Shown one piece after another: positions 1,000 through 16,412 of a stretch of 30,276 nucleotides of DNA (the stretch's first letter is position 1; each line of letters begins with the position of its first letter). The DNA comes from a virus. The translations under genes were made by a program, and so were the position numbers. Location: positions 1-30,276 of the IMG/VR virus record IMGVR_UViG_3300004448_001446; one strand, written 5' to 3'. The notes beneath the pieces are model-generated. The model was not told the DNA's origin. It was given only the letters and a program-made list of their open reading frames with translations, and made no database searches.

Positions 1000-2842
1000 A
1001 AAAAGAAAAATTAATTTATATTGGGATAAATGGAACTTTGGAAATGAGGAGAGGGCTGGGCATTTACCTTCTACACCTAGTCAGTATATAGAATGGACTA
1101 ATGATCCTACAGATGTTGCTATTTTTGTAGATTATGACGGTTCACTAGATAATTTAGAAACTATAGTTAAAAATTCAAATCAAAAATATAAAGTTATGGT
1201 TCAAATGGAACCTATGAGTTTTAATAGAGCTTTACATTCTTGGATTTTAGAGAATGAACATTTATTTGATTTAATATTTGTTCATTACCCTGCATGGAAA
1301 GGCACAGGTAAATATCCGGAAAAGTATAAGTATTATATAGCTGGTTCCAGAACTTTTATTGATTCTAATGAAAGAAAAATTTATAATAAAAGTAAAAATG
1401 TCACGGCTATATGGTCTAATAAAAACCTTGGGCTGCAAGGGCATATATTAAGACATACTGCAAGGGACTATATAAAAAATAAAATACCTAAGACTGTTGA
1501 TTGGAATAATCCTGTAAAAAAGATTGATGTATTAAAGGATTATAGATATGAAATAGTTGTAGAAAACGAATTTCCTTATTTTTTAACAGAGAAACATTTA
1601 GATTGTATGTTAACTGGTACTATTCCTATAATATGGGGCCATAAAGATACTAAGCAATGGGAAGGGTTTAATACAGATGGTATGATATTTTTTAATACAG
1701 CTGAAGAATTATATGATATCTTAACTAGCAATAAATTAACTTCTGAATTTTACAATTCAAAAGAAAAAGAAATTAAGCATAATTTTAAAGAATGTTTTAA
1801 ACACTTAAGTTTTGGCGATATTATTTGGAGGTCAGGTTTATCTGATCTTTTAAAAAGTGAATCTTCGGATAATTTAACTATTGATTTTAATTTAGACGGC
1901 GGTGGGACACTTTCTCAATTAGAAGTAATGGTTAAATCTCTTGTACATAATCCTAAGTTGCTAAAAACAATAGAAGAAGCACCATCAATTTATATAAAAT
2001 TAGGTGAGCATATTAAAAGCCATTGGCTTAAAGACAATAAAGGACTACGAAGAGTTCCTAATTGGTTTGATTTTGTTTTTGATCAATCTCCAAACGAAAA
2101 TAATAAAGTATTAAATCTTTATCGCCCTAATCTATGTAATGATAATTATATAATACCTTGTACTAATCTTATTACTAATAAAAGGGATAAGGATCTTTTG
2201 CCTATTATGAGAAAGGTCGTCAATACATTATGTAAATGGAAACCTTCATTAATAAATGATGTAAATAATTATTATAAAAAGTGGAAGTTAGATTCTAATA
2301 CATTAGGAGTTCATCTAAGAACTACTGATATGAATTTACATACAGAGTGGGGTAAGGCAGAGTTAAGTGATTACCTTATTTTAATTCGTAAGGTTATAAA
2401 AGAAAATCCTAATATTAATAAGATTTTTATAGCAAGTGATGCAGTAAAGAGCATTGAGTATTTAAAAACGTTTTCCGATCTTCCACCTATTTATTATTTT
2501 AATATAGAAAGAGTAGACCTAACCGACCAAACAGATTCTCAAGTTACTCAACAAATACTTAACTGGGAAAAGAAAGATAATGCATATGAGCTTTTTAGAG
2601 ATGTACATATGCTATCTAAATTTCCTATTTTTATAGGAAGAATAAGTTCTGTGACAAATTTTTCTATAATATTAAATGAGAATATTAAAAAATATTATTG
2701 CATTAATGAATTTTTTAATGATCATAATGAATTAGAAAAAGAAAGAAGAAAATATGTTAAAACATTTTTACCTTCTGGTGGTTGGGATAGGTTAGAATTA
2801 TCTGAAGAAGAAATAGAAAAATTTGCAAAAATAAATGATTAA
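992..2842 (+). CDS. Two-domain fucosyltransferase-like glycosyltransferase (GT10-like plus GT23/NodZ-like)
   Basis: The protein has 616 residues from the ATG at 992, which overlaps the upstream stop and has GAGAAGG just before it. An earlier in-frame ATG at 965 would overlap the dehydratase more and is less likely. The N-terminal half (about residues 1-290) looks like a GT10 alpha-1,3/1,4-fucosyltransferase: the segment at about 184-216 contains YEIVVEN, LTEKHLDC and GTIPIIWG, matching the family's conserved donor-site block. The C-terminal half (about 370-580) carries LGVHLRTTD with His441 and Arg443, then FIASDA, then DVHMLSKFPIFIGRISS. This is the pattern of GDP-fucose enzymes of the GT23/NodZ/GT11 type. 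Both halves would use GDP-fucose, but no GDP-fucose synthesis genes are in the window. Each family call rests on short motifs. Joining two such domains in one phage protein is unusual. Confidence 0.65.
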   Translation: MNKKRKINLYWDKWNFGNEERAGHLPSTPSQYIEWTNDPTDVAIFVDYDGSLDNLETIVKNSNQKYKVMVQMEPMSFNRALHSWILENEHLFDLIFVHYPAWKGTGKYPEKYKYYIAGSRTFIDSNERKIYNKSKNVTAIWSNKNLGLQGHILRHTARDYIKNKIPKTVDWNNPVKKIDVLKDYRYEIVVENEFPYFLTEKHLDCMLTGTIPIIWGHKDTKQWEGFNTDGMIFFNTAEELYDILTSNKLTSEFYNSKEKEIKHNFKECFKHLSFGDIIWRSGLSDLLKSESSDNLTIDFNLDGGGTLSQLEVMVKSLVHNPKLLKTIEEAPSIYIKLGEHIKSHWLKDNKGLRRVPNWFDFVFDQSPNENNKVLNLYRPNLCNDNYIIPCTNLITNKRDKDLLPIMRKVVNTLCKWKPSLINDVNNYYKKWKLDSNTLGVHLRTTDMNLHTEWGKAELSDYLILIRKVIKENPNINKIFIASDAVKSIEYLKTFSDLPPIYYFNIERVDLTDQTDSQVTQQILNWEKKDNAYELFRDVHMLSKFPIFIGRISSVTNFSIILNENIKKYYCINEFFNDHNELEKERRKYVKTFLPSGGWDRLELSEEEIEKFAKIND

Positions 2843-3416
2843 TATTTACGGAAAAGGCGGGCATGCAAAAGTAATAAGTTCTGTTTTGTATAATACACAC
2901 CCTAAACAAATAAAATTTTGGGATGATGAAAGTTATGAAAAAGAAGTTGGGGATTTTGATCCTTATAATAATAATATAGAAGGTGATTGGTTAATTGCTA
3001 TTGGTAATAATAGTTCAAGAAAAAGAATAGCAGAATTATTAGGAAATGATTGTTATATTACAGTAATTCATGACTCGGCTGTTTTGGATAGAAATATTAA
3101 TCCTGGGAAGGGTTCTCAGATATTGCATAATTCTACAATACAAGTTGGTACTAAAATAGGAAAGCATTGTATAATAAATACGGCGGCATCAATAGATCAT
3201 GATTGTATATTAGGAGACTTTAGTTTTATAGGACCTAATGCAACATTGTGTGGTGGTGTAGAAATTGGAGAAGGTACATTTATTGGAGCAGGTGCTGTGA
3301 TATTACCTTATATTAAAATTGGTAAAAATTGTATGATTGGTGCAGGCTCAGTTGTTACAAAAAATTTACCTGATGGAATTACTGCTTATGGAAATCCTGT
3401 TAAAATAAAATTATGA
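2835..3416 (+). CDS. PglD/NeuD-family sugar acetyltransferase
   Basis: The protein has 193 residues, close to C. jejuni PglD (195). The N-terminal domain begins INIYGKGGHAKV, the Rossmann-like sugar-nucleotide binding motif of the NeuD/PglD family. From about residue 85 onward there are hexapeptide repeats of a left-handed beta-helix (IGKHC, ILGDFSFIGPNATLCGG, IGEGTFIGAGAV, IGKNCMIGAGSVV) and a VTKNLPDG ending. His122 in the sequence ASIDHDC corresponds to the catalytic His of PglD. The expected role is acetyl-CoA-dependent N-acetylation of the 4-amino group made by the aminotransferase encoded next. The gene overlaps its upstream neighbour by 8 bases and the downstream one by 4. O-acetylation of a sialic acid (NeuD-like) is an alternative, but the dehydratase and aminotransferase neighbours favour the PglD role. 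Confidence 0.83.
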   Translation: MINIYGKGGHAKVISSVLYNTHPKQIKFWDDESYEKEVGDFDPYNNNIEGDWLIAIGNNSSRKRIAELLGNDCYITVIHDSAVLDRNINPGKGSQILHNSTIQVGTKIGKHCIINTAASIDHDCILGDFSFIGPNATLCGGVEIGEGTFIGAGAVILPYIKIGKNCMIGAGSVVTKNLPDGITAYGNPVKIKL

Positions 3417-4528
3417 AAAAAATTTATCTTTCACCGCCTCATATGTCAGGCAAAGAGTTAGAATATATTAATGATGTGTTTAAAGATAATTGGATAGCTC
3501 CAATTGGGCCACATCTTAATATGTTTGAAGATACTGTTAAAGAATATACTAATTCTAAATACGCAGTAGCTGTTACTTCAGCAACTGCAGGTATTCATTT
3601 AGCATTAAGAGCATTAAGGGTTGAAGAAGGTGATTATGTTTTATGTTCTTCATTAACTTTCGTAGCAACCGTTAATCCTATAATTTACTGTGGTGCTGAA
3701 CCTATTTTTATTGATTCAGAAGAAGGTACATGGAATATGGATCCTATACTATTAGAAAAAGCAATTCTTAATTCAACAGCTTTAGGTAAAAAACCAAAAG
3801 CTATTATACCCGTCCATATTTTTGGAGTACCATGTAATATGGATGCAATTAAAAAATTATCAGATGAATATGACATACCTATTATTGAAGATGCCGCTGA
3901 AAGTTTGGGATCTACTTTTAATAATAAGCACACAGGAACCTTTGGTCCTATTGGTGTTTATTCTTTTAATGGAAATAAGTTATTATCTACCTCAGGTGGT
4001 GGGGTTATTGTAACCAATGATGATAAACTTGCAGATTATATGAGATTTTTATCTACGCAAGCTAAAGATAAAAAACCATTTTATCATCATACTGAAATAG
4101 GTTATAATTATAGAATGAGTAATGTTCTTGCTGCAATTGGTGTAGGCCAAATGGAGTCTATAGAAGATAGAATAAAAAGAACAAGAGAAATTAATCAAAT
4201 TTATAGAAAAGAAGTAGGTAATTTATTTTATTCTTTTCAAGAAGAGAGAGAAACTGATAGATCTAATATGTGGTTAAGCTGTGCTCTTATGAAAGGTGAA
4301 GATAAACCAGAAGATTTAATTGACCATTTAGCTAATGATAATATAGAAGCAAGAAGAATTTGGAAACCAATGCATGAACAACCAGTTATGCAAGGATATA
4401 AAAAATATATAAATGGAAACAGTTCTTTATTATTCTTACAAGGTATTTGTTTACCTTCAGGTTCAGATCTTACAAACAAAGATATGAAAAGAATTATAAA
4501 GTCTATAAAAACATTTTTTAATAAATGA
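3413..4528 (+). CDS. DegT/DnrJ/EryC1 (PglE-like) PLP-dependent sugar aminotransferase
   Basis: The protein has 371 residues, a normal length for the family. It opens with IYLSPPHMSGKELEY and NWIAPIGPHLNMFE, the usual start of PglE/EpsN-type enzymes. SATAGIHLAL binds the cofactor phosphate. Asp160 in IIEDAAESLG contacts the pyridoxal nitrogen, and Lys189 in SFNGNKLLSTSGGG is the expected Schiff-base lysine. The reaction is transfer of an amino group, normally from glutamate, to C4 of the 4-keto-6-deoxy sugar made by the first gene. The start codon overlaps the previous stop by 4 bases (ATGA), and its own stop overlaps the next start by 4 bases, so translation is probably coupled. All key residues are present. 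Confidence 0.87.
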   Translation: MKKIYLSPPHMSGKELEYINDVFKDNWIAPIGPHLNMFEDTVKEYTNSKYAVAVTSATAGIHLALRALRVEEGDYVLCSSLTFVATVNPIIYCGAEPIFIDSEEGTWNMDPILLEKAILNSTALGKKPKAIIPVHIFGVPCNMDAIKKLSDEYDIPIIEDAAESLGSTFNNKHTGTFGPIGVYSFNGNKLLSTSGGGVIVTNDDKLADYMRFLSTQAKDKKPFYHHTEIGYNYRMSNVLAAIGVGQMESIEDRIKRTREINQIYRKEVGNLFYSFQEERETDRSNMWLSCALMKGEDKPEDLIDHLANDNIEARRIWKPMHEQPVMQGYKKYINGNSSLLFLQGICLPSGSDLTNKDMKRIIKSIKTFFNK

Positions 4529-5433
4529 TAACTTTTGAAGAATATAACTTATTAGAGTCTTATATAGGCCAAGAAAATTTTCAAATTCTTTTAGAAAAAA
4601 ATCTTGGATCAAAAATAGATAATGATATTAAGTTTGGAATAGTGATGGCTACTCATGATATGAATGCTGGTGCTGCAAACAAACAGAGGGCAAAGCATAT
4701 GACAACTCCTGGCGTTTTAGCAGATGCTTTAAATTCTATTAAGAATCAAAAATATAAAAACTGGAAAATTTATTTGACTGCTGATAAATATGAAGGTGAT
4801 GAGAATGAAATTAAAAAAGTAATAGAAGATATTATACCTGCTGATCAAATTCAATATAAGAATAGATCAACACCAGGTGAAAGAAATAATAAAAAGTGGA
4901 CAACTAAACAAATTAGATTTACTGCAGGCTGTGGTGCATTAAATGATTCCTTAAATATGGCAGACAAAGACGGTTGTGATTATATCATACGATTAGATCA
5001 TGATGATAAATGGGCTCCTAATCACTTAGAGACTATTGCTAAAGCGTACTCACAATTTCCTGATTTAGGTTTTGTGTTTACTAGAAGTAAAAAGAAAGTA
5101 ACTGCTCATAATACTGCAAAGAAAGTATTTATGCAACCGCAAAAAGAATATGATATGGATTTAAATAATAAAGGATACGGAGCAAATGATACTTCGCATT
5201 CTGCTGTGTCTTGGAGACCTAGCATAATAGGTAAATTAAGATATAGAAATCCAGATCAACAGAAAAACACTGCTCCTAAGCTAAAGGGTGCACCATCTAA
5301 TTCAGGTGGTATATTACCTGCTGATTGGGACATGTTTAAAAGAGTCATGATGAACGTCAAGGACAAAGGAAAAAATTATATGTACATTCCTAAAGTAACA
5401 AGTTTTTACAGAAACCGTGAAGGTAAGTTCTAG
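4525..5433 (+). CDS. GT2-type (GT-A fold) glycosyltransferase
   Basis: The protein has 302 residues. The N-terminal third resembles family 2 glycosyltransferases: a beta-strand FGIVMATHD, then LADALNSIKNQKYKNWKIYL, where the helix and NW.IYL pattern is typical of GT2. The metal- and donor-binding motif is RLDHDDKW (Asp158, Asp160, Asp161). The insert with ERNNKKWTTKQIRFTAGCGALNDSL fits the segment before the DxD motif. The C-terminal part (about 190-302) is not recognised and may set the acceptor. This is the last gene of the five-gene glycan cluster; its start overlaps the aminotransferase stop. It could transfer the trideoxy sugar made by the cluster, but neither donor nor acceptor can be read from the sequence. 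Confidence 0.72.
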   Translation: MITFEEYNLLESYIGQENFQILLEKNLGSKIDNDIKFGIVMATHDMNAGAANKQRAKHMTTPGVLADALNSIKNQKYKNWKIYLTADKYEGDENEIKKVIEDIIPADQIQYKNRSTPGERNNKKWTTKQIRFTAGCGALNDSLNMADKDGCDYIIRLDHDDKWAPNHLETIAKAYSQFPDLGFVFTRSKKKVTAHNTAKKVFMQPQKEYDMDLNNKGYGANDTSHSAVSWRPSIIGKLRYRNPDQQKNTAPKLKGAPSNSGGILPADWDMFKRVMMNVKDKGKNYMYIPKVTSFYRNREGKF

Positions 5434-5757: not shown

Positions 5758-5770
5758 TATAATAATAAAT
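5758..5770 (+). promoter_or_regulatory. TATAAnAATAAA-class promoter of the sugar/methyltransferase operon
   Basis: TATAATAATAAAT lies 23 bases before the ATG at 5781, directly downstream of the terminator at 5681-5709. The same 12-base core occurs before uvsX (13580) and the gp55 gene (22727), with one-base variants before gp45, the polymerase unit and gp41. The short spacing implies a very short mRNA leader if this is a -10 element. It may be used by a phage-modified RNA polymerase. Confidence 0.6.
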
Positions 5771-5780
5771 TAGGATTTAT

Positions 5781-6332
5781 ATGGAAAAATGTTTAATGTT
5801 AGATTTTGATGATACACTAGTTAAAACTATTGAGATTCATGCTGATTCCTGGAGAAAGGCATTAGAAAAGGTCTTAAACATAGAAATACCGTTATCCGCT
5901 ATCATGGCAGATATTAATTATGGTATGGATGTTTTATTAGAAAAATATCAATTAACTAATAAAGAATCTAAGTTAGCACAAAAATATAAAAAGGAAATAT
6001 TTTCAAAAAACTTACATAAAACTAAAGTAAATGAATTACTTTTATATATGTGTAAGAGTAAAGTATTTAAAAATTTAGTTATAGCATCTAATTCTTCTAG
6101 AGAAAATGTAGATAGAATCATGAGTTATCATCAAATAGATCCTAAGTTATTTGATTACATATATACAAGAGAAGATGTATCAAATAAAAAACCGTCTATA
6201 GATATGGGAAATCTAATAATAGAAAAATTTCCACAATATAACAAAGAAGACTTTTTAATGGTTGGTGATTCTGACGTAGATTCAACCTTTGCACGTAAAC
6301 TAGGAATAAAATGCATAATAGTAAAATTTTAG
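5781..6332 (+). CDS. HAD-superfamily phosphatase
   Basis: The protein has 183 residues with all four HAD motifs: DFDDT with nucleophile Asp8 and acid/base Asp10; motif II at S103 in ASNSS; Lys in SNKKPS; and the Mg-binding motif GDSDVD at 162-167. A helical cap lies between residues 15 and 85, as in the beta-phosphoglucomutase-like subfamily. It is the first gene of a six-gene operon with a kinase, a nucleotidyltransferase, a glycosyltransferase, an epimerase and a DNA methyltransferase. It probably dephosphorylates, or isomerises, a sugar phosphate on the way to an activated sugar. The substrate cannot be read from the sequence. The gene overlaps the next by 22 bases. Confidence 0.8.
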   Translation: MEKCLMLDFDDTLVKTIEIHADSWRKALEKVLNIEIPLSAIMADINYGMDVLLEKYQLTNKESKLAQKYKKEIFSKNLHKTKVNELLLYMCKSKVFKNLVIASNSSRENVDRIMSYHQIDPKLFDYIYTREDVSNKKPSIDMGNLIIEKFPQYNKEDFLMVGDSDVDSTFARKLGIKCIIVKF

Positions 6333-7057
6333 TAGGGAATAGTGGAGATAAAGTATTTCTCCAAGGTAACAAAGTAATTAAAGAGGCTGGGCATTATCCA
6401 GAAAAATTCAAACAGCAAATGGAATTTCTTATGTGCTGTGATCATCCTAATTTTATTAATGTTAAGCCTCTATCAGAAACAAGTTATGAAATGAAAAGGT
6501 TTTCAACTTGGTATGATAAAATTTTAACTCAACCTATTACTAACTCATTAAATCAATTAGAAAATCTTATTTCAATTATAGGCAAGTTTGATAATATAGG
6601 ATCTGATGTAAAGACTCAAGATTATTTTAATAAACTTCAATTAAGAACAGGTTATACTTATGAAGGTAAATTTGATGCAGTATCTTGTTGGGGTTTTGTA
6701 CATGGAGATTTAACCGTAAGTAACATTTTACATGATAAAGATTTTCTTTTTATAGACCCAAGAGGTACCGAAGAACAGGACTATTATGATTATGGAAAAC
6801 TGATGCAATCATTTGTCATGGAATATGAGTCCCATATATACAATAATCCAAATAAAAAATACAGTAAGTTCTGTAAAGAAGCTGAAAAGATAATGTATGA
6901 ATGGTGTGATGAATATCAACTTAAGTTCTTTTTAGCTGTTCATTTATTAGGAGCAGTACCTTTCTTTGAATTAAATGAAAGGTATGAATTAGCAGGATCT
7001 TTCCTTAAAAAAGGACATGAATTATTTGATGAATTAGAAATAAAGTATACTAAATGA
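6311..7057 (+). CDS. APH/choline-kinase-like small-molecule kinase
   Basis: The protein has 248 residues with the active-site pattern of the aminoglycoside phosphotransferase/choline kinase fold: HGDLTVSN at 131-138 (catalytic Asp133, metal ligand Asn138) and FIDPRG with Asp149. An N-terminal lobe with KVFLQGNKVIKEA would bind ATP. Such kinases occur in capsule and LPS loci, where they phosphorylate sugars or alcohols before nucleotidyl transfer. The next gene encodes a nucleotidyltransferase, which suits a kinase then pyrophosphorylase order. The chosen ATG is the only reasonable start, and it overlaps the upstream gene by 22 bases. The stop overlaps the next start by 4 bases. Antibiotic resistance is unlikely in this context. 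Confidence 0.72.
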   Translation: MHNSKILVGNSGDKVFLQGNKVIKEAGHYPEKFKQQMEFLMCCDHPNFINVKPLSETSYEMKRFSTWYDKILTQPITNSLNQLENLISIIGKFDNIGSDVKTQDYFNKLQLRTGYTYEGKFDAVSCWGFVHGDLTVSNILHDKDFLFIDPRGTEEQDYYDYGKLMQSFVMEYESHIYNNPNKKYSKFCKEAEKIMYEWCDEYQLKFFLAVHLLGAVPFFELNERYELAGSFLKKGHELFDELEIKYTK

Positions 7058-7758
7058 AAAGAGTAAGTAAAGCAATTATATTAGCAGCAGGCCGTTCTAC
7101 AAGATATGGCAAAAATAAATTAGTTGATCCTATCTTAGGCAAATCAACAGTTGAATATTGTATTGAATTTTGTATTGAGAATGGAATAGAAGATTGTTAT
7201 GTAACAATTAGTAAAGCCGATTTCTTTTTTAAAGATAGTATAAAACTTTCTCATCCTATTATAGAAAAACTTAATAAGTATAAAAAAGACATTAACATAT
7301 TTTATGAATTTCAAAAGGATGATGAATATGGTCCAGGTGCAGCAATAAAGGTTTGGGCTGGTAAATTTAATGAAGGCTTCTTGTGTTTATTTGGAGATAA
7401 TTATTATCAAGGAAATATAGGATTAGAATATCATGATCCAAACAGTACAGTAGTTACTTACAAAGATTATGATACAAGAGCTAGGAATTTACAATTAGCT
7501 TCCATATTAGAAAATGTTGTTATAGAAAAACCACATGGAATTGTTTCAGGAAGATATTTCTGTGGTTATATGATATTTTCAAAAGAAGCATTTGATAATC
7601 TTGATAGTATTAAAATGTCAAATAGAAATGAATATGAAATTACCCATCTTATTAATTCAATGGATAATTTAAAGTTTGAGGAATTAAATATATGTTGGTA
7701 TGATCTAACGTATGAAAATGATAAAGAAGTAATAGAAGATTTAATTAAAACGTGTTAA
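7054..7758 (+). CDS. Sugar-phosphate nucleotidyltransferase (NTP_transferase family)
   Basis: The protein has 234 residues. The N-terminal nucleotide-binding signature is AIILAAGRSTRYGKNKL, with the GRSTRYG loop at 13-19 and Lys22. The metal-binding position is FGDNYY with Asp115, and GPGAAIKVW resembles the substrate-binding segment of RmlA/GalU-like enzymes. EITHLINSM near residue 195 fits the usual EITD.IN motif. It should join a sugar 1-phosphate (or similar alcohol phosphate) to a nucleotide and release pyrophosphate. It starts inside the stop of the kinase gene (ATGA overlap), and the next gene begins immediately after its stop. This tight packing suggests one pathway supplying the glycosyltransferase encoded next. 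Confidence 0.82.
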   Translation: MKRVSKAIILAAGRSTRYGKNKLVDPILGKSTVEYCIEFCIENGIEDCYVTISKADFFFKDSIKLSHPIIEKLNKYKKDINIFYEFQKDDEYGPGAAIKVWAGKFNEGFLCLFGDNYYQGNIGLEYHDPNSTVVTYKDYDTRARNLQLASILENVVIEKPHGIVSGRYFCGYMIFSKEAFDNLDSIKMSNRNEYEITHLINSMDNLKFEELNICWYDLTYENDKEVIEDLIKTC

Positions 7759-9003
7759 ATGGAAAATGTTAAAAAAGTAGGTTTCTTTAAACTTGGTAAA
7801 GCGATTAAGTTTAATGAAAACAGTTGGGGCGCAATCGGTGGAGATTGTGAACCTAAGCAATTAATAAATGCAATAGCAAAAAGAAATCCTAATATTGAAT
7901 ATTGGTTATTAAGCCCTAATGATTTAGGCAGAGTTAGAGCAAAAGAAAAGCCGGCAGTTCAATCATTATTTGGAGATCCTGTTAAAGCAGAGTCAGCGGC
8001 AGAATCAAACATTCATGAATTTCATTCTAAAATGGAGAATAGAAAATCTGCTGATGAAACTGTAAAATTTATAAAAGAATTAGATTTAGATTTTATTTTC
8101 TTTTACACTGGACCATCAAGTACAGTTAATATTCCTAATTATATTAATAAGAAGGATGGGAATGGTCAAGTTAAATCATTAGACTTTTTTAAATATTATG
8201 CAGCACCAATAATTCAAGCAATGAATGAATTGGAAAAGAAAGTACCAATTGTTGGTTTACTTGTAGATAATCGATATGTATTAGCCTGTAAAGATTGGGG
8301 TATTAATAATAGACCTACATATTACTTAGCTCAAAATAATTTTACAAAAGAAGAGCAGTATTTTTATCAACCACCACTAAGAGATGTTAAAACAATTACT
8401 TCTACTTATGAATATTCAGGTATTGAAACTGTCTTTCTTTTAGATAAGACTAGGTATAACACTGATGAATTGTTTGAAATGAAAAAGACAAATTCATTTA
8501 TGATGTTACAAAATCAAGGAAAAGGTACGGGAGGAATGGACCGATGGGATCCAGTTAAAGATTATATTGTAGAGAATGATATAAAGACAGATATTTATGG
8601 TAAGTGGGATGATGAATTAAAAGAAAAATATCCAAATTGGTTTAAAGGAGAAAAAAGAATTGAATCAATGACAGATGAATTACTTTCTACTAAGTATACT
8701 TTCTGTGTACCTATTAAAGAAGGAATGGTAACCTCTAAGTATGCTGAAATGCTACACTATGGTATTATACCATTCTTACATCCATCTTACGATACTGAAT
8801 TTAATGTCTTCCCTGACGGTCATTTCATTAGATGTAAATCTCCAGAAGATTTAAAAAAGAAAGTAGATTTTTTAAATGCAAACCCAGAGCATTATAAAAA
8901 ACTCTTTTATAATCTCCAAGAAAAGTATTTAAAAGATTCTTATTATACTGGAGAACACGTAGATAATAAAATATGGGAAGCTTATAACAAAATAACAAAC
9001 TAA
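7759..9003 (+). CDS. GT-B glycosyltransferase resembling phage DNA glucosyltransferases
   Basis: The protein has 414 residues and is not a close match to a family I can name with certainty. Its layout resembles T4 beta-glucosyltransferase. The N-terminus KVGFFKLGKAIKFNENSWG recalls a first Rossmann strand. VPIVGLLVDNRYVL has Asp170 where the T4 enzyme has catalytic Asp100 in a FTDIRLPF context. DIYGKWDDELKEKYPNW matches the FFGNAREKQFKNPKYPW region. The C-terminal stretch (AEMLHYGIIPFLHPSYDTEF, then FIRCKSPEDLKKKVDFLN) parallels the T4 donor-binding end. I infer transfer of the sugar made by the preceding genes, possibly to a modified base, because a cytosine-5 methyltransferase lies two genes downstream. 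A glycosyltransferase acting on capsid or cell wall is the main alternative. Confidence 0.55.
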   Translation: MENVKKVGFFKLGKAIKFNENSWGAIGGDCEPKQLINAIAKRNPNIEYWLLSPNDLGRVRAKEKPAVQSLFGDPVKAESAAESNIHEFHSKMENRKSADETVKFIKELDLDFIFFYTGPSSTVNIPNYINKKDGNGQVKSLDFFKYYAAPIIQAMNELEKKVPIVGLLVDNRYVLACKDWGINNRPTYYLAQNNFTKEEQYFYQPPLRDVKTITSTYEYSGIETVFLLDKTRYNTDELFEMKKTNSFMMLQNQGKGTGGMDRWDPVKDYIVENDIKTDIYGKWDDELKEKYPNWFKGEKRIESMTDELLSTKYTFCVPIKEGMVTSKYAEMLHYGIIPFLHPSYDTEFNVFPDGHFIRCKSPEDLKKKVDFLNANPEHYKKLFYNLQEKYLKDSYYTGEHVDNKIWEAYNKITN

Positions 9004-9007
9004 ATAT

Positions 9008-10027
9008 ATGTATAATTCTGAAACTAAAATCCTAGTCACCGGTGGTGCTGGGTTCGTTGGTACAAATTTTATCAATGATTTATTAAATAGAGGACATAAT
9101 CCTGAATGTATTGCAGTTATTGATAATATGGAACATGGAACTTATATTCCTAAAGTTCATGATCAAATAGAAAACTTTCATAGAGTTGATATTAGAAATC
9201 AATTTGTAGAAACAATTATTGAAAAATTTGCACCAGATTATGTTTATCACTTTGCAGGTTTAGTTTCAATTTATGATTGTCATGAAGATGTATATGAAGC
9301 AGTAGATAATAATATCTTAGGAAGTATTAATGTAATGAATGGCTGTCTTAAGGCAGATGTTAAAAGAATTATCTTTAGTGAAACTTCAGCAGTATATGAA
9401 AATTGCGAAATGCCTAAAGCAGGATTTAATGAAACTCAATCAGATCCTACTACAATTTATTCTACAACAAAAGCATGTCTTGCCCTATTAGCAGAATCTT
9501 ATTGTAGAACTAAAGGATTGAATTATACTGCACTTAGATATTTTAATGTAGCAGGACCACTACAAGATTACGAAAGAACAATCCCACCAGTTTTTGCTGG
9601 ATTTATTCTAAGAATCAAAGGTGGCCGTAATCCTATTGTGTTTGGTGATTATATGAAGGCAAGAGATTATATAGATGTATCTGATGTTAATGCATTCCAT
9701 ATTCTTTGTATGGAAAATGAAGATACTGCAAATCAAACATTTAATCTAGGAACTGGTAAAATGACTAACCTAATGGATCTTAAAAATATGATAGCAGACA
9801 TTATGGATGTTAATGTTGATTTTGATCATTATGATGCAATTGCAGGAGAAGCATTAAATTCTTATGGAGATATTTCTAAAGCAAAATCAATGGGATGGGA
9901 ACCTAAAAAAGATATAACTGATACAATCAAAGAAACTATTGTATATTTGGAAAATGAAATAGAAGAAGGTAATATTGATCCTTTTACATTCATGGAAGAT
10001 TTAGAAATTGAAAAAGTTAAAATATGA
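9008..10027 (+). CDS. NAD-dependent sugar epimerase (GalE-like extended SDR)
   Basis: The protein has 339 residues, the normal length for UDP-glucose 4-epimerase relatives. The NAD-binding motif ILVTGGAGFVG is at 8-18. The catalytic triad is visible: Ser127 in SETSAVYE, Tyr151 and Lys155 in IYSTTK. LRYFNVAGP and RDYIDVSDV are typical of GalE/WbpP-type enzymes. It would invert a hydroxyl, or otherwise modify a nucleotide sugar, probably the product of the nucleotidyltransferase two genes upstream. It starts 4 bases after the glycosyltransferase stop and overlaps the methyltransferase start by 4 bases (ATGA). A UDP-sugar decarboxylase is less likely, because the C-terminal part lacks the hallmarks I would expect. 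Confidence 0.85.
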   Translation: MYNSETKILVTGGAGFVGTNFINDLLNRGHNPECIAVIDNMEHGTYIPKVHDQIENFHRVDIRNQFVETIIEKFAPDYVYHFAGLVSIYDCHEDVYEAVDNNILGSINVMNGCLKADVKRIIFSETSAVYENCEMPKAGFNETQSDPTTIYSTTKACLALLAESYCRTKGLNYTALRYFNVAGPLQDYERTIPPVFAGFILRIKGGRNPIVFGDYMKARDYIDVSDVNAFHILCMENEDTANQTFNLGTGKMTNLMDLKNMIADIMDVNVDFDHYDAIAGEALNSYGDISKAKSMGWEPKKDITDTIKETIVYLENEIEEGNIDPFTFMEDLEIEKVKI

Positions 10028-11292
10028 AAAAAGAAAAAGAATTAAAATGGGGTACTATAATTCCACTGATTGGTGGTAGTGCAATAGGTTGTAATAAAGC
10101 AACAGGTAATTTACCAGCATTTCATTTAAGCTATGAAGCATTTGCTGCAAATGAAAGTCATATTGAAGATTATTGGCCAGAAGTACCGATGTATAGGCTA
10201 GATCATGAAGAATTAGATATTCCTAATCAAACATTTGAAAAAGTTGATTTTGTAAATTCAGTTTGCCCTTGTGCAGGATTGTCACAGTTAAATTCTGCTA
10301 GCGGTAGCGCCTCATCTAGAGGATCTGATGCGGTTCAAAATCAATGGATGTATAATTCATCGGAGTATGTTTTGGAGAATGTTAAACCTAAAGTCTTATG
10401 GGGTGAAAACGCGCCAGGATTATTTACCAAAATGGGTGAAGGTGTTGTTAATAGGCTAAAGGCCATCGGTGAAAAATATGGATATAGCTTTTCTTTAATT
10501 AAAACAAATACTGAATTACATGGAATTCCACAAAGAAGAATACGAACATTCTATTTCTTTTGGAATACACCAACTGTACCTTTATTGGAATGGAAATTCA
10601 GAGAAAAGAAACATCTTATAGATTATCTTAAAGAAATACCAGAAGATGCAACATTACAAGATATGTTTATGGTAGCCGGAAAGGTAACGGATCATTATAA
10701 ACCTTATGAATTCGTATTAGAAAAAGAAGAATTGAATCATGCTGATTTTGCTAAGAAGTTTGGTAAAGGTACAATTGCTCAGTATTTAGAAAAGAATGAA
10801 TTACTTGATGAATGTATTCAATGGTTAGATAAAAATTATCATAAACAAGGGTTCTCTAATAAAAAATCCACAAAATCATTTGGTGATATGTTAGAGCATC
10901 AGAAATATAAAACAAGCCAAGGTTTAGGTTATTGGGATGCATCACCTCACTTCTTTAATGAAAGTTTCTCAGCTCTTATCGGTAGAAATATGTTTAATGG
11001 TGTACACCCAACGGAAAACCGATATTTAAACATTAGAGAAATGTTACACTTAATGGGATTACCTTTAGACTTTGGTATTAAGGATGCTAGGCAAGTTAAT
11101 CATATTGCTCAAAATGTACCTGCAACAACGGCTATGGATATGGCAGTTGAAGTTAAAAAGTTCTGTGAAGGTAAATCTAAAATGACAAACTTTACTTTTA
11201 TGAAACAGGATAATACAAACCAAAAAATCCTAGTAACAGAAGAACTGGGCGCAGTACCTAAAAAGAAGTATAAAGTTAAGAGTACTTTTTAA
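10024..11292 (+). CDS. Divergent DNA (cytosine-5) methyltransferase
   Basis: The protein has 422 residues with most C5-methyltransferase motifs in order. Motif IV is CPCAGLSQLN with catalytic Cys83; the family consensus is PCQ, so Gln is replaced by Ala. Motif VI is ENAP at 128-131 and motif VIII is QRRIR at 170-174. Motif IX is represented by YLNIREMLHLMGLP and motif X by HIAQNVPATTA near the C-terminus. Motif I is unusual: IIPLIGGSAIGC stands in place of the FAGxGG type. The central region (about 190-310) would be the target-recognition domain. It is the last gene of the operon and no terminator separates it from gp45 downstream. It could methylate phage DNA against restriction, or make the first change in a hypermodified cytosine. 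The family call is firm; product chemistry is open. Confidence 0.82.
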   Translation: MKKEKELKWGTIIPLIGGSAIGCNKATGNLPAFHLSYEAFAANESHIEDYWPEVPMYRLDHEELDIPNQTFEKVDFVNSVCPCAGLSQLNSASGSASSRGSDAVQNQWMYNSSEYVLENVKPKVLWGENAPGLFTKMGEGVVNRLKAIGEKYGYSFSLIKTNTELHGIPQRRIRTFYFFWNTPTVPLLEWKFREKKHLIDYLKEIPEDATLQDMFMVAGKVTDHYKPYEFVLEKEELNHADFAKKFGKGTIAQYLEKNELLDECIQWLDKNYHKQGFSNKKSTKSFGDMLEHQKYKTSQGLGYWDASPHFFNESFSALIGRNMFNGVHPTENRYLNIREMLHLMGLPLDFGIKDARQVNHIAQNVPATTAMDMAVEVKKFCEGKSKMTNFTFMKQDNTNQKILVTEELGAVPKKKYKVKSTF

Positions 11293-11339: not shown

Positions 11340-12089
11340 ATGGAAGCAACTATTAAAAAAATTGACGGTTACGAATTAAGTACATTCGTCAAAAAACTTT
11401 TACCAATTGATAAATTCATTTTTATGAAAATTGGAAAGGAAGGAACCGTTTCATCTGTATACTTCCCAGAAAGGGATGCAGTGAAATTAGTATCAACACC
11501 AACATCTGATATCTTTGACACTGACATTACTAATCCAGTAAAGGTTAGTTTTTATAATGGTACCAAAGTAATCGATGCACTATCTCATTTTAATGGAGAT
11601 GTACAAGGTAAAATTAAGTACTCAGAAATTGATGGAGAATTAATGGCAAGTGATTTTACTTTAGAGAATGCTGATCTTCAAATTAATTTAGCATGTGCTG
11701 ATCCATCATTATCATTTATGGAAATGAGTAAAGAAGAAACTGATCGTGCATTTGGAACTGACGGTAATATATTTCAGTTTGATCTTTTAACAACTCATGT
11801 GGATAAAATGAAATCTTTATTTAATTTAGAAAGAGAAGAAGATACATTTACATTAGCAGTAACTGATAAAGGTATTGCAGTACAAGGTCTTTCTTATGAT
11901 GCTACTTTAGCTCATTCATATGAAGGTGAAAATGCAGTAGGACAAAAGGTTGTAATTTACAAAAAATATATTAACCTTTTAGATAAAGAAAACTATAAAG
12001 TGGTAGTTTGTAATAATAAAGTTGTATTTAGATCTTTAGATACCAACACTCACTTAACTGTCGCTGTGGCGATTACTGACGAGGATTAA
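11340..12089 (+). CDS. 45: DNA polymerase sliding clamp, T4 gp45-like
   Basis: The protein has 249 residues (T4 gp45: 228). It shows the alternating beta-rich composition of a PCNA-like clamp subunit. LACADPSLSFMEMSK sits where T4 has WPAADPSTVVAPNK, and the end YKVVVCNNKVVF then THLTVAVAITDED parallels the T4 ending YKLLLWAKG then NYVVALEADS. It would form a trimeric ring that tethers polymerase and, in T4, also activates late transcription with gp55. The gene is flanked by its own promoter motif and a strong terminator. The clamp-loader genes 44 and 62, next to gene 45 in T4, are not in the window. Sequence identity to T4 is low, so the call also rests on the replication-gene neighbourhood. 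Confidence 0.78.
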   Translation: MEATIKKIDGYELSTFVKKLLPIDKFIFMKIGKEGTVSSVYFPERDAVKLVSTPTSDIFDTDITNPVKVSFYNGTKVIDALSHFNGDVQGKIKYSEIDGELMASDFTLENADLQINLACADPSLSFMEMSKEETDRAFGTDGNIFQFDLLTTHVDKMKSLFNLEREEDTFTLAVTDKGIAVQGLSYDATLAHSYEGENAVGQKVVIYKKYINLLDKENYKVVVCNNKVVFRSLDTNTHLTVAVAITDED

Positions 12090-12113
12090 TTTTTACTTAT
12101 CCTTAATATAATA

Positions 12114-12142
12114 AAGGCATCTCTATATGAGGTGCCTTTTTT
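12114..12142 (+). terminator. Intrinsic terminator after gp45
   Basis: AAGGCATCTC (12114-12123) pairs with GAGGTGCCTT (12129-12138) with one T-G wobble. The loop is TATAT and a run of T follows. It isolates the clamp unit from the polymerase unit. Confidence 0.9.
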
Positions 12143-12158
12143 CTTAAACTTTTTATAG

Positions 12159-12180
12159 TTTTTAGCATATAAAAATAAAT
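12159..12180 (+). promoter_or_regulatory. TATAAAAATAAA promoter in a 21-base sequence repeated at 15100
   Basis: The core TATAAAAATAAAT (12168-12180) lies 21 bases before the ATG at 12189 and follows TTTTTAGCA. The 21 bases at 12159-12179 are identical to those at 15100-15120, which precede gp41. It would drive the small unknown gene and the polymerase fragment. Confidence 0.6.
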
Positions 12181-12188
12181 AATAAATT

Positions 12189-12428
12189 ATGGCATATAAA
12201 ACAAAAATTGGTCTCAGAGCTAATATAACTAAAAAGAATGGTCAAGATACAATAGAGTTTATAGAATTTGATGCAAGATACCAAGATACCTATATTCAGT
12301 ATATCACCGAATATTATAATCCTTTAACAGGTTTATTTGACACCGAAAAAACCCTCATATATTTTGAAGGCAATGATACATTACTTATAAATCAAGACTT
12401 TGCTACAACTTCTACTGAATTAACATAA
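12189..12428 (+). CDS. Small hypothetical protein before the polymerase fragment
   Basis: The protein has 79 residues and I do not recognise it. It begins MAYKTKIGLRANITKKNGQD and appears beta-rich and slightly acidic, with several aromatic residues (YQDTYIQYITEYYNPLTG) and a threonine-rich tail. It has no membrane segment or signal peptide. It starts after an A-rich leader without Shine-Dalgarno and ends one base before the start of the polymerase fragment, so the two are transcribed and probably translated together. This suggests a link to the polymerase, but nothing in the sequence resembles the missing N-terminal polymerase domains. Confidence 0.65.
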   Translation: MAYKTKIGLRANITKKNGQDTIEFIEFDARYQDTYIQYITEYYNPLTGLFDTEKTLIYFEGNDTLLINQDFATTSTELT

Positions 12429-12429
12429 T

Positions 12430-13554
12430 ATGACAGAGCTTACAGAATTACAGCAAATCAATAAAGAAGCAAGTAAGTTTTATAATTATGAGCAAGCAGT
12501 TAAGTTAATGCTTAACTCTATTTATGGTGCATTTGGTAATCCTTACTTTTATTTCTTTAATGTTGATATAGCAGAGACTATAACATTACAAGGTAAAGAT
12601 GCAATTTTATATACTGAAGAATTACTTAACATGTACTTTAGTAAATATTGGCATAAAGACATTGCTGCTCATAAAGAAATGGGAATAACAGTAACTGGAA
12701 GAATAGAAAATCCTGTAGGTATTTATATTGATACAGATTCAGTATATGTAAAGTTTGATGAAGTAATAGAAAAATCAGAAGGTTGGAAAGGTGATGAAAA
12801 GGAATTTATTTTAAAATTATATAAGGTTAGAGTAAATGGTTATTTAGAAAAAATTCTTCAAAAATATGCTGATGATAATAATGCAGAAAACTTTTTATCT
12901 TTTGAATTAGAAAGCATTGCCAAAAATGCAATATGGTTAGCTAAGAAAAAGTACATGCAAAATATTGTATGGAAAGATCCAGATATTCATTATGAAGATT
13001 TGTCTAAAATTAGTTCAAAAGGTTTTGAAATTATTCAATCGTCTACTCCAATATTTGCTAGAGAAAAACTAAAAGATTTATTAACATACATATTCTCTGT
13101 TGATAAGTTAGATATGAAAGCATTTGCCGCATTACTTAAAGATATAAAAAGACAATTTAAATTGGCAAATGTAGATCAAATTTGTTTTTCTAGAAAAGTA
13201 AATAATTATCAAAAATACATTACAAATGATTATGAAGCTTTTGAATTTGCATCAAGGTGTCCCATTGGAGTAAGATCTGCAGGTTACCATAATTATTTAT
13301 TAAATAATTCTACATCTAAAGGTAAGTATCAGCCGCTAGGCAATGGTGAAAAATGTAAAATGTATTTCTCTAAAGATAAAGCATGTGATGTGTTTGCATT
13401 TGCACCTGGTGAATATCCTTATGAATTTGCACCAGAAATGGATCATGATAGACAATTTGAAAAAACAATACTAGATCCTATTAATCGAGTAGTAACTGCA
13501 ATGGGATTTAAAGCATTTAATAGAAATTTGATTTACACTACAAGCCTATTTTAA
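12430..13554 (+). CDS. 43: DNA polymerase, family B, C-terminal half (split T4 gp43)
   Basis: The protein has 374 residues and starts just upstream of family B motif B, KLMLNSIYGAFGN (Lys25, Asn29, Tyr32, Gly33). Motif C, YIDTDSVYV, has catalytic Asp101 and Asp103. The thumb is recognisable: WLAKKKYMQ, QSSTP and CPIGVRSAGYHNYLL match T4 KAKKRYALN, QSSTP and CPFHIRGVLTYRRAV. T4 gp43 has 898 residues with motif B near 560, so this is the last 40 percent: part of palm, fingers and thumb. The exonuclease domain and motif A are not upstream in any frame here and must be encoded elsewhere. The start is clean, with its own ATG and an upstream promoter, so this looks like a working split gene rather than decay. 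The tail IYTTSLF may be the clamp-binding peptide. Confidence 0.88.
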   Translation: MTELTELQQINKEASKFYNYEQAVKLMLNSIYGAFGNPYFYFFNVDIAETITLQGKDAILYTEELLNMYFSKYWHKDIAAHKEMGITVTGRIENPVGIYIDTDSVYVKFDEVIEKSEGWKGDEKEFILKLYKVRVNGYLEKILQKYADDNNAENFLSFELESIAKNAIWLAKKKYMQNIVWKDPDIHYEDLSKISSKGFEIIQSSTPIFAREKLKDLLTYIFSVDKLDMKAFAALLKDIKRQFKLANVDQICFSRKVNNYQKYITNDYEAFEFASRCPIGVRSAGYHNYLLNNSTSKGKYQPLGNGEKCKMYFSKDKACDVFAFAPGEYPYEFAPEMDHDRQFEKTILDPINRVVTAMGFKAFNRNLIYTTSLF

Positions 13555-14807: not shown

Positions 14808-15087
14808 TACTACAAAGCTTAAAGTAAAGTATGTATTAGGAAACCACACAACATTGCCACATTACCCTGATGCTGAAGATATACTTTTTGAATTAATTAG
14901 AGACTACTGTGGGAAAGTTTCTAAAGACATAAAATTTACAGATGTTTCAATGGCAAAACGCTGGAACTTATCCAAAGAACAATGTGATATTATTTTAAAA
15001 GAATTATTAAAGCATAAGTTTTTAGAAATATCTTTACAGAATTCTGCATATACAACTTATGAAGTAATCTATAATCCTTATCAATAA
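14785..15087 (+). CDS. Small hypothetical protein, possible winged-helix
   Basis: The protein has 100 residues from the ATG at 14785; a second ATG follows at once at 14788. I do not recognise it. The middle (DVSMAKRWNLSKEQCDIILKELLKHKFLEIS) looks like a winged helix-turn-helix: a recognition-type helix followed by a K.KFLEIS strand. It occupies the place of T4 gene 40, between uvsX and gene 41, and has a similar length, but I cannot match the sequence to gp40. It is translated from within the 3' end of uvsX, so expression is coupled. A role with the helicase or recombinase is only suggested by position. Confidence 0.6.
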   Translation: MMLPKTLNTTKLKVKYVLGNHTTLPHYPDAEDILFELIRDYCGKVSKDIKFTDVSMAKRWNLSKEQCDIILKELLKHKFLEISLQNSAYTTYEVIYNPYQ

Positions 15088-15099
15088 AACTAAATATGT

Positions 15100-15120
15100 T
15101 TTTTAGCATATAAAAATAAA
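15100..15120 (+). promoter_or_regulatory. TATAAAAATAAA promoter before gp41, second copy of the 21-base repeat
   Basis: The 21 bases are identical to 12159-12179. The core TATAAAAATAAA (15109-15120) is only 17 bases before the gp41 start, which implies an extremely short leader if it is a -10 element. Confidence 0.55.
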
Positions 15121-15125
15121 ACTAC

Positions 15126-16412
15126 ATGAAATCAAGTATAGATCACGAAAAGATTTTCTTTAACTATTTTTTAACAAAGCCACATTATCTGAAAGGAACA
15201 GGTAAAGGCTTTTTTGCAAATAGAGATTTAGATCAGATTGCAAAACTCTCAAAAGATTTCTATTTAAAATTTGGCGAAAGCCCGTCTAAACAACAGATGT
15301 CAGCTTTAGTTAAGGATGACCCTAATGAGATATCTCAGGATATTGTAAAATCTGTTTTTGATATTAATATTAATGAATATGATCAAGATTGGTTAAAGAG
15401 AACTGGAGAGGCGTGGGTTAAATGGAAACATTTTGATAAACAATTAGTTAGAACAATTGAATATGTAAAAACTCAAGATGTATCACCAGAAAATGTAGAG
15501 GATGTAGTTCAGCGCGCAATAGGAATGATCTCAACTGATGGGTCAATTAATTTTGATACTGATACAGGTTTAGATTTCTTTAATCCTGAATCTCATATTC
15601 AAAGAACATCAAAGAAAATAGAAACAGGTTGGAGCTTTGTAGACCGAGTATCTGGTGGAGGTTATGATACTAAATCATTAATAGTTTATGCAGGAGAACA
15701 AAACATTGGTAAATCTATATGGTTAGCAAACGATGCAGCCAATTTTGTAAAGATGGGGCATAATGTAGTTTTTATAACAGCAGAAATGTCAGCTCAAAAG
15801 GTATTAAAAAGAATAGGTGCTAATCTTTTACATGTTCCAATGAGTGATTATGATAAAAATGCAACTAATAGGGATTATATGAAAAGAAAGTTGGAAAAGG
15901 TATCTAGGGGTTTATTACCTCCTGGTAAATTATTTGTTAAAGAATATCCAACTTCACAAGGAACTATACCAGATATTGAATCATACTTAAAAGATTTAGA
16001 AGAATCAACAGATCATAAAGTAAATGTATTAGTTGTAGATTATATTAATATTCTTGCAAATTATAGAAATCCTAATACTGAAAATACTTATATGAAGATT
16101 AAGCAAATAGCTGAAGATCTTAGAGCATTAGCAGTTAAAAGAGATATGCTAGTTATCTCTGCTACTCAGATTAATCGTGGCGCATGGGATGCAACAGAAG
16201 TAAGAATGGAAAATATAGCAGAATCCGCAGGTCTTGCGCATACTGCCGATGTAATGTATGCACTGATACAAGATTCAGTAATGCATGCTGAGCGTGAATA
16301 TTGGTTAAAGGTTTTAAAAATTAGAGACGGTCAAGGAAAGGGATCAAGATGTAGGTTTAATATTGACTATGAACATATGAGATTAACAGAAACTGATGAT
16401 ATATCAGGATAA
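15126..16412 (+). CDS. 41: Replicative DNA helicase, DnaB/T4 gp41-like
   Basis: The protein has 428 residues (T4 gp41: 475). The N-terminal helical domain is followed by a RecA-type ATPase core. Walker A is GEQNIGKS at 190-197, preceded by TGWSFVDRVSGGGYDTKSL. GHNVVFITAEMSAQKVLKRIGANLL matches T4 GHNVLYISMEMAEEVCAKRIDANML. The Walker B strand is VLVVDYINIL, and QIAEDLRALAVKRDMLVISATQINR and NIAESAGLAHTADVMYALI are close to T4. It unwinds DNA 5' to 3' as a hexamer and works with the gp61 primase (not in the window). It has its own promoter motif. The 18-base gap to the next gene is A-rich and has no terminator. Confidence 0.95.
   Translation: MKSSIDHEKIFFNYFLTKPHYLKGTGKGFFANRDLDQIAKLSKDFYLKFGESPSKQQMSALVKDDPNEISQDIVKSVFDININEYDQDWLKRTGEAWVKWKHFDKQLVRTIEYVKTQDVSPENVEDVVQRAIGMISTDGSINFDTDTGLDFFNPESHIQRTSKKIETGWSFVDRVSGGGYDTKSLIVYAGEQNIGKSIWLANDAANFVKMGHNVVFITAEMSAQKVLKRIGANLLHVPMSDYDKNATNRDYMKRKLEKVSRGLLPPGKLFVKEYPTSQGTIPDIESYLKDLEESTDHKVNVLVVDYINILANYRNPNTENTYMKIKQIAEDLRALAVKRDMLVISATQINRGAWDATEVRMENIAESAGLAHTADVMYALIQDSVMHAEREYWLKVLKIRDGQGKGSRCRFNIDYEHMRLTETDDISG

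Follow-up and report, generated by a model that had tools for sequence, protein, structure and literature searches.

Sugar-coating of cytosines is described, in excerpts of PMC12838424, as guarding phage DNA against restriction and CRISPR nucleases, and excerpts of PMC6024577 and PMC12838424 show that glucosyl-, arabinosyl- and pentosyl-cytosines are already published. The closest described systems are those of T4, with gp42, gp56 and the beta- and alpha-glucosyltransferases, and of RB69, whose DNA bears arabinosyl-5-hydroxymethylcytosine (arabinosyl-hmC) according to an excerpt of PMC6024577. To these we compare a six-gene island in a 30,276-base IMG/VR virus fragment (IMGVR_UViG_3300004448_001446, positions 1 to 30,276; the window). 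With a probability of roughly 0.77, the island serves to glycosylate cytosine in phage DNA in the manner of T4 and RB69, in which case hmC would come from a dCMP hydroxymethylase, sugar would be transferred by an enzyme like T4 beta-glucosyltransferase (BGT), and a C5-methyltransferase homologue would act last. A group of T4-like phages appears to decorate the cytosines of its DNA with an additional sugar. Any new sugar or linkage offers a new reagent and presents host defences with a new target. The six genes and their downstream neighbor are as follows.

5781..6332, plus strand: HAD-family phosphatase (Pfam HAD_2, 4.9e-24)
6311..7057, plus strand: APH-like sugar kinase, proposed sugar 1-kinase (HGDLTVSNIL...IDPRG core; hhalign)
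7054..7758, plus strand: sugar-1-phosphate nucleotidyltransferase (Pfam NTP_transf_3, 1.1e-6)
7759..9003, plus strand: GT-B glycosyltransferase (GT), T4-BGT-like (weak Pfam Glyco_trans_1_2, 0.0011; AF2 model)
9008..10027, plus strand: NAD-dependent nucleotide-sugar epimerase/dehydratase, GalE-like (Pfam Epimerase, 1.2e-44)
10024..11292, plus strand: C5-cytosine methyltransferase homologue of the 'PLIGG' subfamily (Pfam DNA_methylase, 2.9e-19, from profile position 46 on)
11340..12089, plus strand: downstream gene, earlier called a sliding clamp (putative; common to 35/35 near loci)

As in T4, the lineage combines a dCMP hydroxymethylase carrying Cys148 and Asp179 with a GT of BGT fold and, in some members, a gp56-like dCTPase; unlike T4, the island has its own sugar-activation line, an epimerase and a C5-methyltransferase homologue. 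The likeness to RB69 and to the pentosyl-cytosine system of Thanatos lies in RB69 ORF051 and ORF053/052, which match the HAD and nucleotidyltransferase/kinase profiles of the island's distant relatives. In the window lineage, on the other hand, kinase and nucleotidyltransferase are encoded by separate genes, the HAD belongs to another subfamily, and the GalE-like epimerase, the BGT-like GT and the methylase are added. An arabinose 5-phosphate isomerase is annotated in RB69. Bacillus phage G (gp301-gp319) shares a C5-methylase relative (gp301), a HAD protein (gp310), a nucleotidyltransferase (gp309), a kinase-like protein (gp311) and a thymidylate synthase (TS)-like protein with the hydroxymethylase-type Asp (gp319), but its gp306 and gp313 are annotated as alpha glucosyl transferases, its genes lie on both strands, and it gave no match to the BGT-like GT query. 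Enterococcus phage 9183/Planchet (Denvervirus) and Pseudoalteromonas phage XG4 have GTs 26-29% identical to that of the window, inside clusters of HAD, nucleotidyltransferase/kinase and TS-like genes. In Denvervirus, a thymidylate kinase, a TS-like enzyme, a dUTPase, a HAD protein and a nucleotidyltransferase/kinase fusion surround the GT, with no methylase annotated there and no match in the methylase search. The XG4 row runs TS-like, HAD, nucleotidyltransferase/kinase fusion, GT, a further open reading frame (ORF) and methylase, the further ORF sitting where the window has its epimerase. Finally, CmoX of phage S-B43 (PMC12783734) is another C5-methyltransferase fold recruited for phage hypermodification, but the window homologue has neither the Arg at the position of HhaI Asn304 nor the SPPC motif of that enzyme, and keeps different gene company.

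By sequence, the GT found no PHROG, no NCBIfam and no PDB match below 0.1, and in Pfam only the weak match above. We therefore turn to its AF2 model (pLDDT 82.7, pTM 0.84, from an alignment of 26 sequences), for which the best structural match is T4 BGT (1j39; Z 21.6, rmsd 3.9 over 314 residues, 12% identity). Among the 998 top-ranked PDB chains aligned, T4 BGT takes ranks 1-4 (Z 21.6-21.0), followed by 6eji (19.4), BshA (19.1-17.9) and T4 alpha-glucosyltransferase (AGT; 17.5); as this margin over other GTs is small, the fold alone would not decide. A local alignment of the two sequences scores 94.5, a value reached by 4/1000 shuffles, and sets VDNRY...NRPTYYL against TDIRL...NRPWAYL, so that Asp170 pairs with BGT Asp100. 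In a test on one segment, the observed value was reached by 8/5000 shuffles, although the stretch was picked after alignment. Profile comparison with BGT (hhalign, E 7e-4) places Arg262 at Arg195, Lys327 at Arg269, a conservative change, and Glu330 at Glu272. In BGT we take Asp100 to be catalytic and Arg195, Arg269 and Glu272 to form the donor site. Asp170, Arg262, Lys327 and Glu330 are invariant across the 26 aligned GT sequences. Since MAFFT misplaced BGT Asp100 in the GT family, pairwise and profile alignments were used. The earlier note on this DNA had described the transferase as having the layout of T4 BGT, with Asp170 at the catalytic site; the predicted structure agrees in its fold, the profile comparison sets Arg262, Lys327 and Glu330 at the donor site, and support for the Asp170/Asp100 pairing in the alignments is moderate. 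From fold and residues, the GT would use Asp170 as base and move the sugar onto the hydroxymethyl oxygen in DNA.

The island's gene order is no accident, since it is kept in near relatives. In 35 IMG/VR relatives whose GT is 74-100% identical to that of the window, the GT, epimerase, methylase and downstream gene are all present (35/35), as are the HAD (29/35), kinase (30/35) and nucleotidyltransferase (30/35) genes, the other loci starting inside the island; the epimerase lies between GT and methylase, together with another ORF in some. A GT profile scan added 42 distant loci, with GTs 29-35% identical. The GT is followed by the methylase in all 42, within 20 bases in 36 and after ~1.13 kb in 6 (in L062 this gap is one ORF without a clear Pfam match), so that the joining of an unusual C5-methyltransferase homologue to a GT, as first proposed, holds over great sequence distance. 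In the stretches fetched, the 42 loci matched the short-HAD profile in 40 cases (HAD counts in these tallies include HADx), the nucleotidyltransferase-kinase fusion in 23 and dCMP hydroxymethylase in 22.

The methylase also keeps company with the dCMP hydroxymethylase. We assembled 88 distant methylase loci, fetched by methylase or GT similarity and not by the hydroxymethylase: the 42 of the GT scan, 35 of a methylase scan with window-like loci excluded, and 11 from metagenome-assembled genomes (MAGs). Most of the IMG/VR and MAG records are fragmentary, and near-duplicates are common among the loci (G024/G026 and G046/G047, for instance). After 60/88 loci with less than 6 kb upstream had been dropped, a dCMP hydroxymethylase was found in 28/28 loci, or 23/23 after dereplication at 90%, its end lying, relative to the start of the methylase, anywhere from 5.6 kb upstream to 6.4 kb downstream. 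The rule describes distant loci, the 35 near loci being outside the count (0/35 locally). Loci L144-L146, with the same downstream gene as the window, have no local hydroxymethylase and are among those dropped for a short upstream; G044, the record of L144, yielded no TS homologue at all. As a control, 80 viral loci with canonical C5-methylases were fetched alike (loose canonical motif I in 78/80); once 28 with short upstream were dropped, dCMP hydroxymethylase was found in 0/52. A rough base rate comes from a phage collection in which 1458/50,697 records match the hydroxymethylase query (1e-5), other TS-like enzymes included. The sugar genes vary: only 14 of the 23 dereplicated loci have a BGT-like GT, L160 has a different sugar module with a UDP-glucose dehydrogenase and two epimerase-like genes, and the methylase island of L148 has a relative of T4 AGT (Pfam AGT, 1.4e-5, just under the cut-off). 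Given 28/28 against 0/52 and the differing sugar modules, the link of the methylase is to hmC and not to any particular sugar. The L148 island (7974-10410) also holds two PLIGG methylase paralogues in tandem.

The cytosine handle is accordingly of central interest, and we searched for TS homologues in 38 records (the 35 near IMG/VR records, XG4, S-TIM5 and phage 9183). One was found in 10/38, including 7/35 near records, and all 7 of the latter have the Asp form; the long contigs G002 and G024 carry a normal ThyA and a separate, divergent TS homologue. Cys148 and Asp179 (T4 gp42 numbering) occur in 36/36 distinct divergent sequences; in both ThyA controls, Asn takes the place of the Asp. A further 22 records that bear the methylase and span 30 kb or more gave TS homologues in 18 cases and none in 4. 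The Asp form is present in each of the 18, and 5/18 also encode an Asn-form ThyA. G002 (methylase 95% identical to that of the window) and G056 (93%) carry the hydroxymethylase, and in G002 it lies ~48 kb downstream of the GT; G030, a 62 kb contig identical to the window, reaches ~45 kb past the GT, short of that distance. A T4 gp56-like dCTPase was found in 6/17 records, most of them fragments and two pairs looking near-identical, and in XG4 it sits just downstream of the methylase. By homology and signature residues in these relatives, rather than in the window fragment itself, a dCMP hydroxymethylase whose gene lies in another part of the genome would produce hydroxymethyl-dCMP and thereby hmC in DNA, and in some members a dCTPase would remove dCTP. 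The hmC would probably be made before replication, as in T4. In S-TIM5 (L038), a gene annotated as ThyA (11763-12599) carries the Asp typical of dCMP hydroxymethylases and is located ~2.4 kb from a PLIGG-family methylase (14983-16200, IIPLVGG); the DNA of this phage may carry hmC.

The first three genes of the island likely form a line from sugar phosphate to nucleoside diphosphate (NDP)-sugar, because of their links to RB69 and Thanatos. The HAD phosphatase would strip phosphate from a sugar-phosphate ahead of anomeric phosphorylation, the kinase and nucleotidyltransferase would convert the product to an NDP-sugar, and the epimerase would set its final form, all as predicted from their families. 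The window's HAD family corresponds by profile to phage G gp310 (1.3e-8), but the profile comparison showed no such correspondence with the distant islands' short HAD. Although the kinase, called APH-like in the earlier note, has no Pfam APH match and no useful PDB match by sequence, the name rests on its HGDLTVSNIL...IDPRG motif and its similarity to phage kinase parts, namely the kinase half of nucleotidyltransferase/kinase fusions (hhalign 1.7e-11) and phage G gp311 (9.7e-10). By profile, the nucleotidyltransferase corresponds to its own half of the fusion (hhalign 2.2e-8) as well as to gp309 of phage G; it also matches a dual sugar-1-phosphate nucleotidylyltransferase (PDB 5z09, 5.3e-9) and is 37% identical to S-CBWM1 gp11. 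The epimerase matches NCBIfam galE at 8.8e-39, under the equivalog cut-off, and a UDP-glucose 4-epimerase (PDB 4zrm) at 9.9e-40, which points to a changed stereochemistry of the sugar. XG4 and Denvervirus supplied the seeds of the short-HAD and fusion profiles, which match those two by construction; beyond them, RB69 ORF051 matches the short-HAD profile (2.2e-14) and ORF052 and ORF053 the fusion profile (2.9e-15 and 1.6e-10; all as E for 100,000 sequences). An excerpt of PMC12838424 reports that phage growth almost stopped when the Thanatos homologue TH1_060 was inactivated. RB69 ORF051 (L230, 1209-1595) is annotated as a phosphoheptose isomerase despite its short HAD phosphatase match, and may fill the phosphatase step of arabinosyl-hmC synthesis. 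The cell-wall recycling set MupP-AmgK-MurU was considered as an identity for the trio and set aside, as the MurU match was weak and confined to the XG4 fusion, and RB69 is the better link.

On sequence grounds, the reading of the six genes as a cytosine hypermodification island is well supported, although several findings weigh against it. The GT has no BGT family match in Pfam at 0.1, its hhalign probability with BGT is only 26%, and only 8/26 GT sequences singly align the Asp170 position to Asp100. No hydroxymethylase lies on the window or on G030, nor in the fetched stretch of any near locus (0/35), the gene being known from 7 longer records. The dCTPase was not found in 11/17 records. Lastly, a separate cluster resembling surface-sugar genes lies upstream of the island.

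The methylase homologue keeps the C5-methyltransferase fold, the catalytic Cys of its PC motif, the Glu of ENx and the QxRxR motif. Its AF2 model (pLDDT 90.1) matches M.HaeIII (Z 25.3), CmoX (8yf3, 23.9) and M.HhaI (23.8), and Cys83, Glu128, Arg172, Arg174 and Asn364 are invariant in 37/37 diverse members. The FxGxGG of the S-adenosylmethionine (SAM) motif I is not kept, reading IPLIGG in the window: position 13 is Ile or Val in 37/37 members, against Phe in 8/9 canonical enzymes, and position 15 is Leu in 37/37, against Gly in 9/9. The alterations in motifs I and IV already noticed in the window (PCA for PCQ) thus hold across the 37 aligned members, with PCA in every one. IPLIGG or VPLIGG occurs in 87/88 distant loci, the remaining one being a fragment without that end; XG4 has IPLIGG, S-TIM5 has IPLVGG, and the more distant relative gp301 of phage G has FIFGG. 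With SAM contacts judged by sequence columns, the motif II acid is kept in 26/37 members and the motif III Asp in 25/37 (~70%). The PLIGG methylase is, judged by its motifs and gene company, an hmC-linked C5-methyltransferase subfamily. It is not rare, with at least 551 confirmed matches in an IMG/VR scan, and the dCMP hydroxymethylase is its constant neighbor in distant loci with enough flank. In the library searched, we found no paper describing this pairing by title or abstract start, although an earlier mention is possible.

From the genomic link to dCMP hydroxymethylase in distant relatives, the methylase homologue would act on cytosines of hmC-bearing DNA. Read plainly, the enzyme would use SAM to methylate those cytosines that had not been replaced. 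If cytosine were fully replaced by hmC, ordinary methylation would have no substrate, which leaves either methylation of residual cytosine after partial replacement or some other reaction at hmC. Of the two, we consider plain methylation of residual cytosine somewhat more likely than new hmC chemistry. In the latter, which is the best placed of the rivals but still rather unlikely, the enzyme would have lost or changed its cofactor and act on hmC itself: Cys would attack C6, the exocyclic CH2OH would be activated or removed, and another group would be joined or hmC trimmed. Such chemistry would fit a catalytic center kept in 37/37 members whose motif I is rebuilt in 37/37, and a hydroxymethylase in 28/28 distant loci with a dCTPase in some genomes, which would leave little cytosine to methylate. 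There is also precedent, in that an excerpt of PMC11347137 describes a known C5-methyltransferase that reacts with hmC-DNA in vitro and transfers methyl groups to it at a low level, and refers to others that dehydroxymethylate without SAM. Against it, the motif II acid and motif III Asp remain in most members and the motif X Asn in 37/37, the fold matches SAM enzymes, so that SAM binding is possible, and replacement of cytosine may be partial. We are slightly more hesitant to extend this to the whole family, as a new class of hmC-acting enzymes in which a C5-methyltransferase scaffold with lost or changed SAM use would apply C6-Cys chemistry to hmC; the same doubt attaches to the corollary that the class would exchange, trim or couple groups at hmC, being a core partner of the dCMP hydroxymethylase in many phages with differing sugar modules. 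In either case, that a phage blocking C5 with a hydroxymethyl group should keep an enzyme working at C5 is a puzzle, and a directly testable one, for which the cultured isolates XG4, S-TIM5 and phage G are sources of DNA.

Glycosylation of cytosine also has to be weighed against the idea that the sugar genes serve capsule, lipopolysaccharide (LPS) or virion glycosylation, the methylase being a chance neighbor that shields DNA by plain methylation. Directly upstream of the island, window positions 1-5433 hold a second sugar cluster, parts of which recur in many near loci: a PseB/FnlA-like UDP-GlcNAc 4,6-dehydratase, a NeuD/PglD-type acetyltransferase, a LegC-family aminotransferase and a GT2 enzyme. 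Its make-up resembles that of a pathway of bacillosamine or legionaminic type, and it favors surface sugars, as do candidate ORFs of glycosyltransferase-like look between the methylase and the 'clamp' in L004 and L006. Against a surface role stand the BGT-like fold and residues of the GT, a GT-methylase linkage of 42/42 at ~30% identity, and the company of dCMP hydroxymethylase and, in some relatives, dCTPase. As far as sequence can, the fold, residues and gene company of the GT speak against a capsule or LPS transferase, the outcome that was to have overturned the hypermodification proposal, and we regard a surface role as improbable.

Also at odds with the gene content is the alternative origin of the base suggested earlier, in which the methylase makes 5-methylcytosine, a dioxygenase oxidizes it and the GT glycosylates the product. 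The close neighborhood of methylase and GT would suit it, but Tet_JBP was found in 0/38 records at E up to 1 (mostly fragmentary, and low scores are possible for phage TETs), and a dCMP hydroxymethylase signature is present instead. The search for a TET/JBP dioxygenase or a dCMP hydroxymethylase in the rest of the genome was thus negative for the first and positive for the second, in relatives and not in the window. Because the hydroxymethylase is present and Tet_JBP was not found, we favor hmC made at the nucleotide level over oxidation of 5-methylcytosine, a route that we hold to be very improbable; the handle is most likely hmC, as judged from these genes, and not 5-methylcytosine. Of the operon as originally proposed, sugar activation, a BGT-like transferase acting on modified cytosine and a linked methylase are supported, and the 5-methylcytosine origin is not. 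That the methylase homologue is a carboxy-SAM (Cx-SAM) carboxymethyltransferase of the CmoX type is the least probable of all, since despite the shared fold (8yf3, Z 23.9) the position taken for HhaI Asn304 (motif X, QN364VP) is Asn in 37/37 members and the motif here is C/P-PCA, where CmoX is defined by SPPC and Arg350 at that position (PMC12783734).

The layout of the island largely follows the earlier description, in which six tightly packed plus-strand genes overlapped several times by 4 bases. All six ORFs are confirmed between 5781 and 11292; two overlaps measure 4 bases (7054-7057 and 10024-10027), a third measures 22 (6311-6332), and the other junctions are one abutment (7758/7759) and one 4-base gap before the epimerase. 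The upstream promoter motif did not hold up, as 29 promoter-like sites were found against 38.8 expected by shuffling, and the lack of internal terminators carries no information, with 1 terminator-like site found inside against 1.7 expected. Elsewhere, the window encodes T4-like tail-sheath stabilizer, portal, protease and capsid genes, as well as UvsX, a helicase, SbcCD and a DNA polymerase. The polymerase, of family B, is present at 12430-13554 as its C-terminal part only, starting near an NSIYG motif; no N-terminal half was seen among the window ORFs tested, and the gene therefore seems split.

Between methylase and downstream gene, many relatives have space for one or two extra ORFs, and such ORFs were seen in L004, L006 and L008. 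The downstream gene had been named a clamp, a label that is not borne out by any match in PHROGs, Pfam, NCBIfam or PDB sequences. Its only match (49%) is in LR756500.1, a 462 kb uncultured phage with no GT or methylase match at the limits used. This genome is also the best match for the dCMP hydroxymethylase (55%), and is a huge-phage relative of the backbone.

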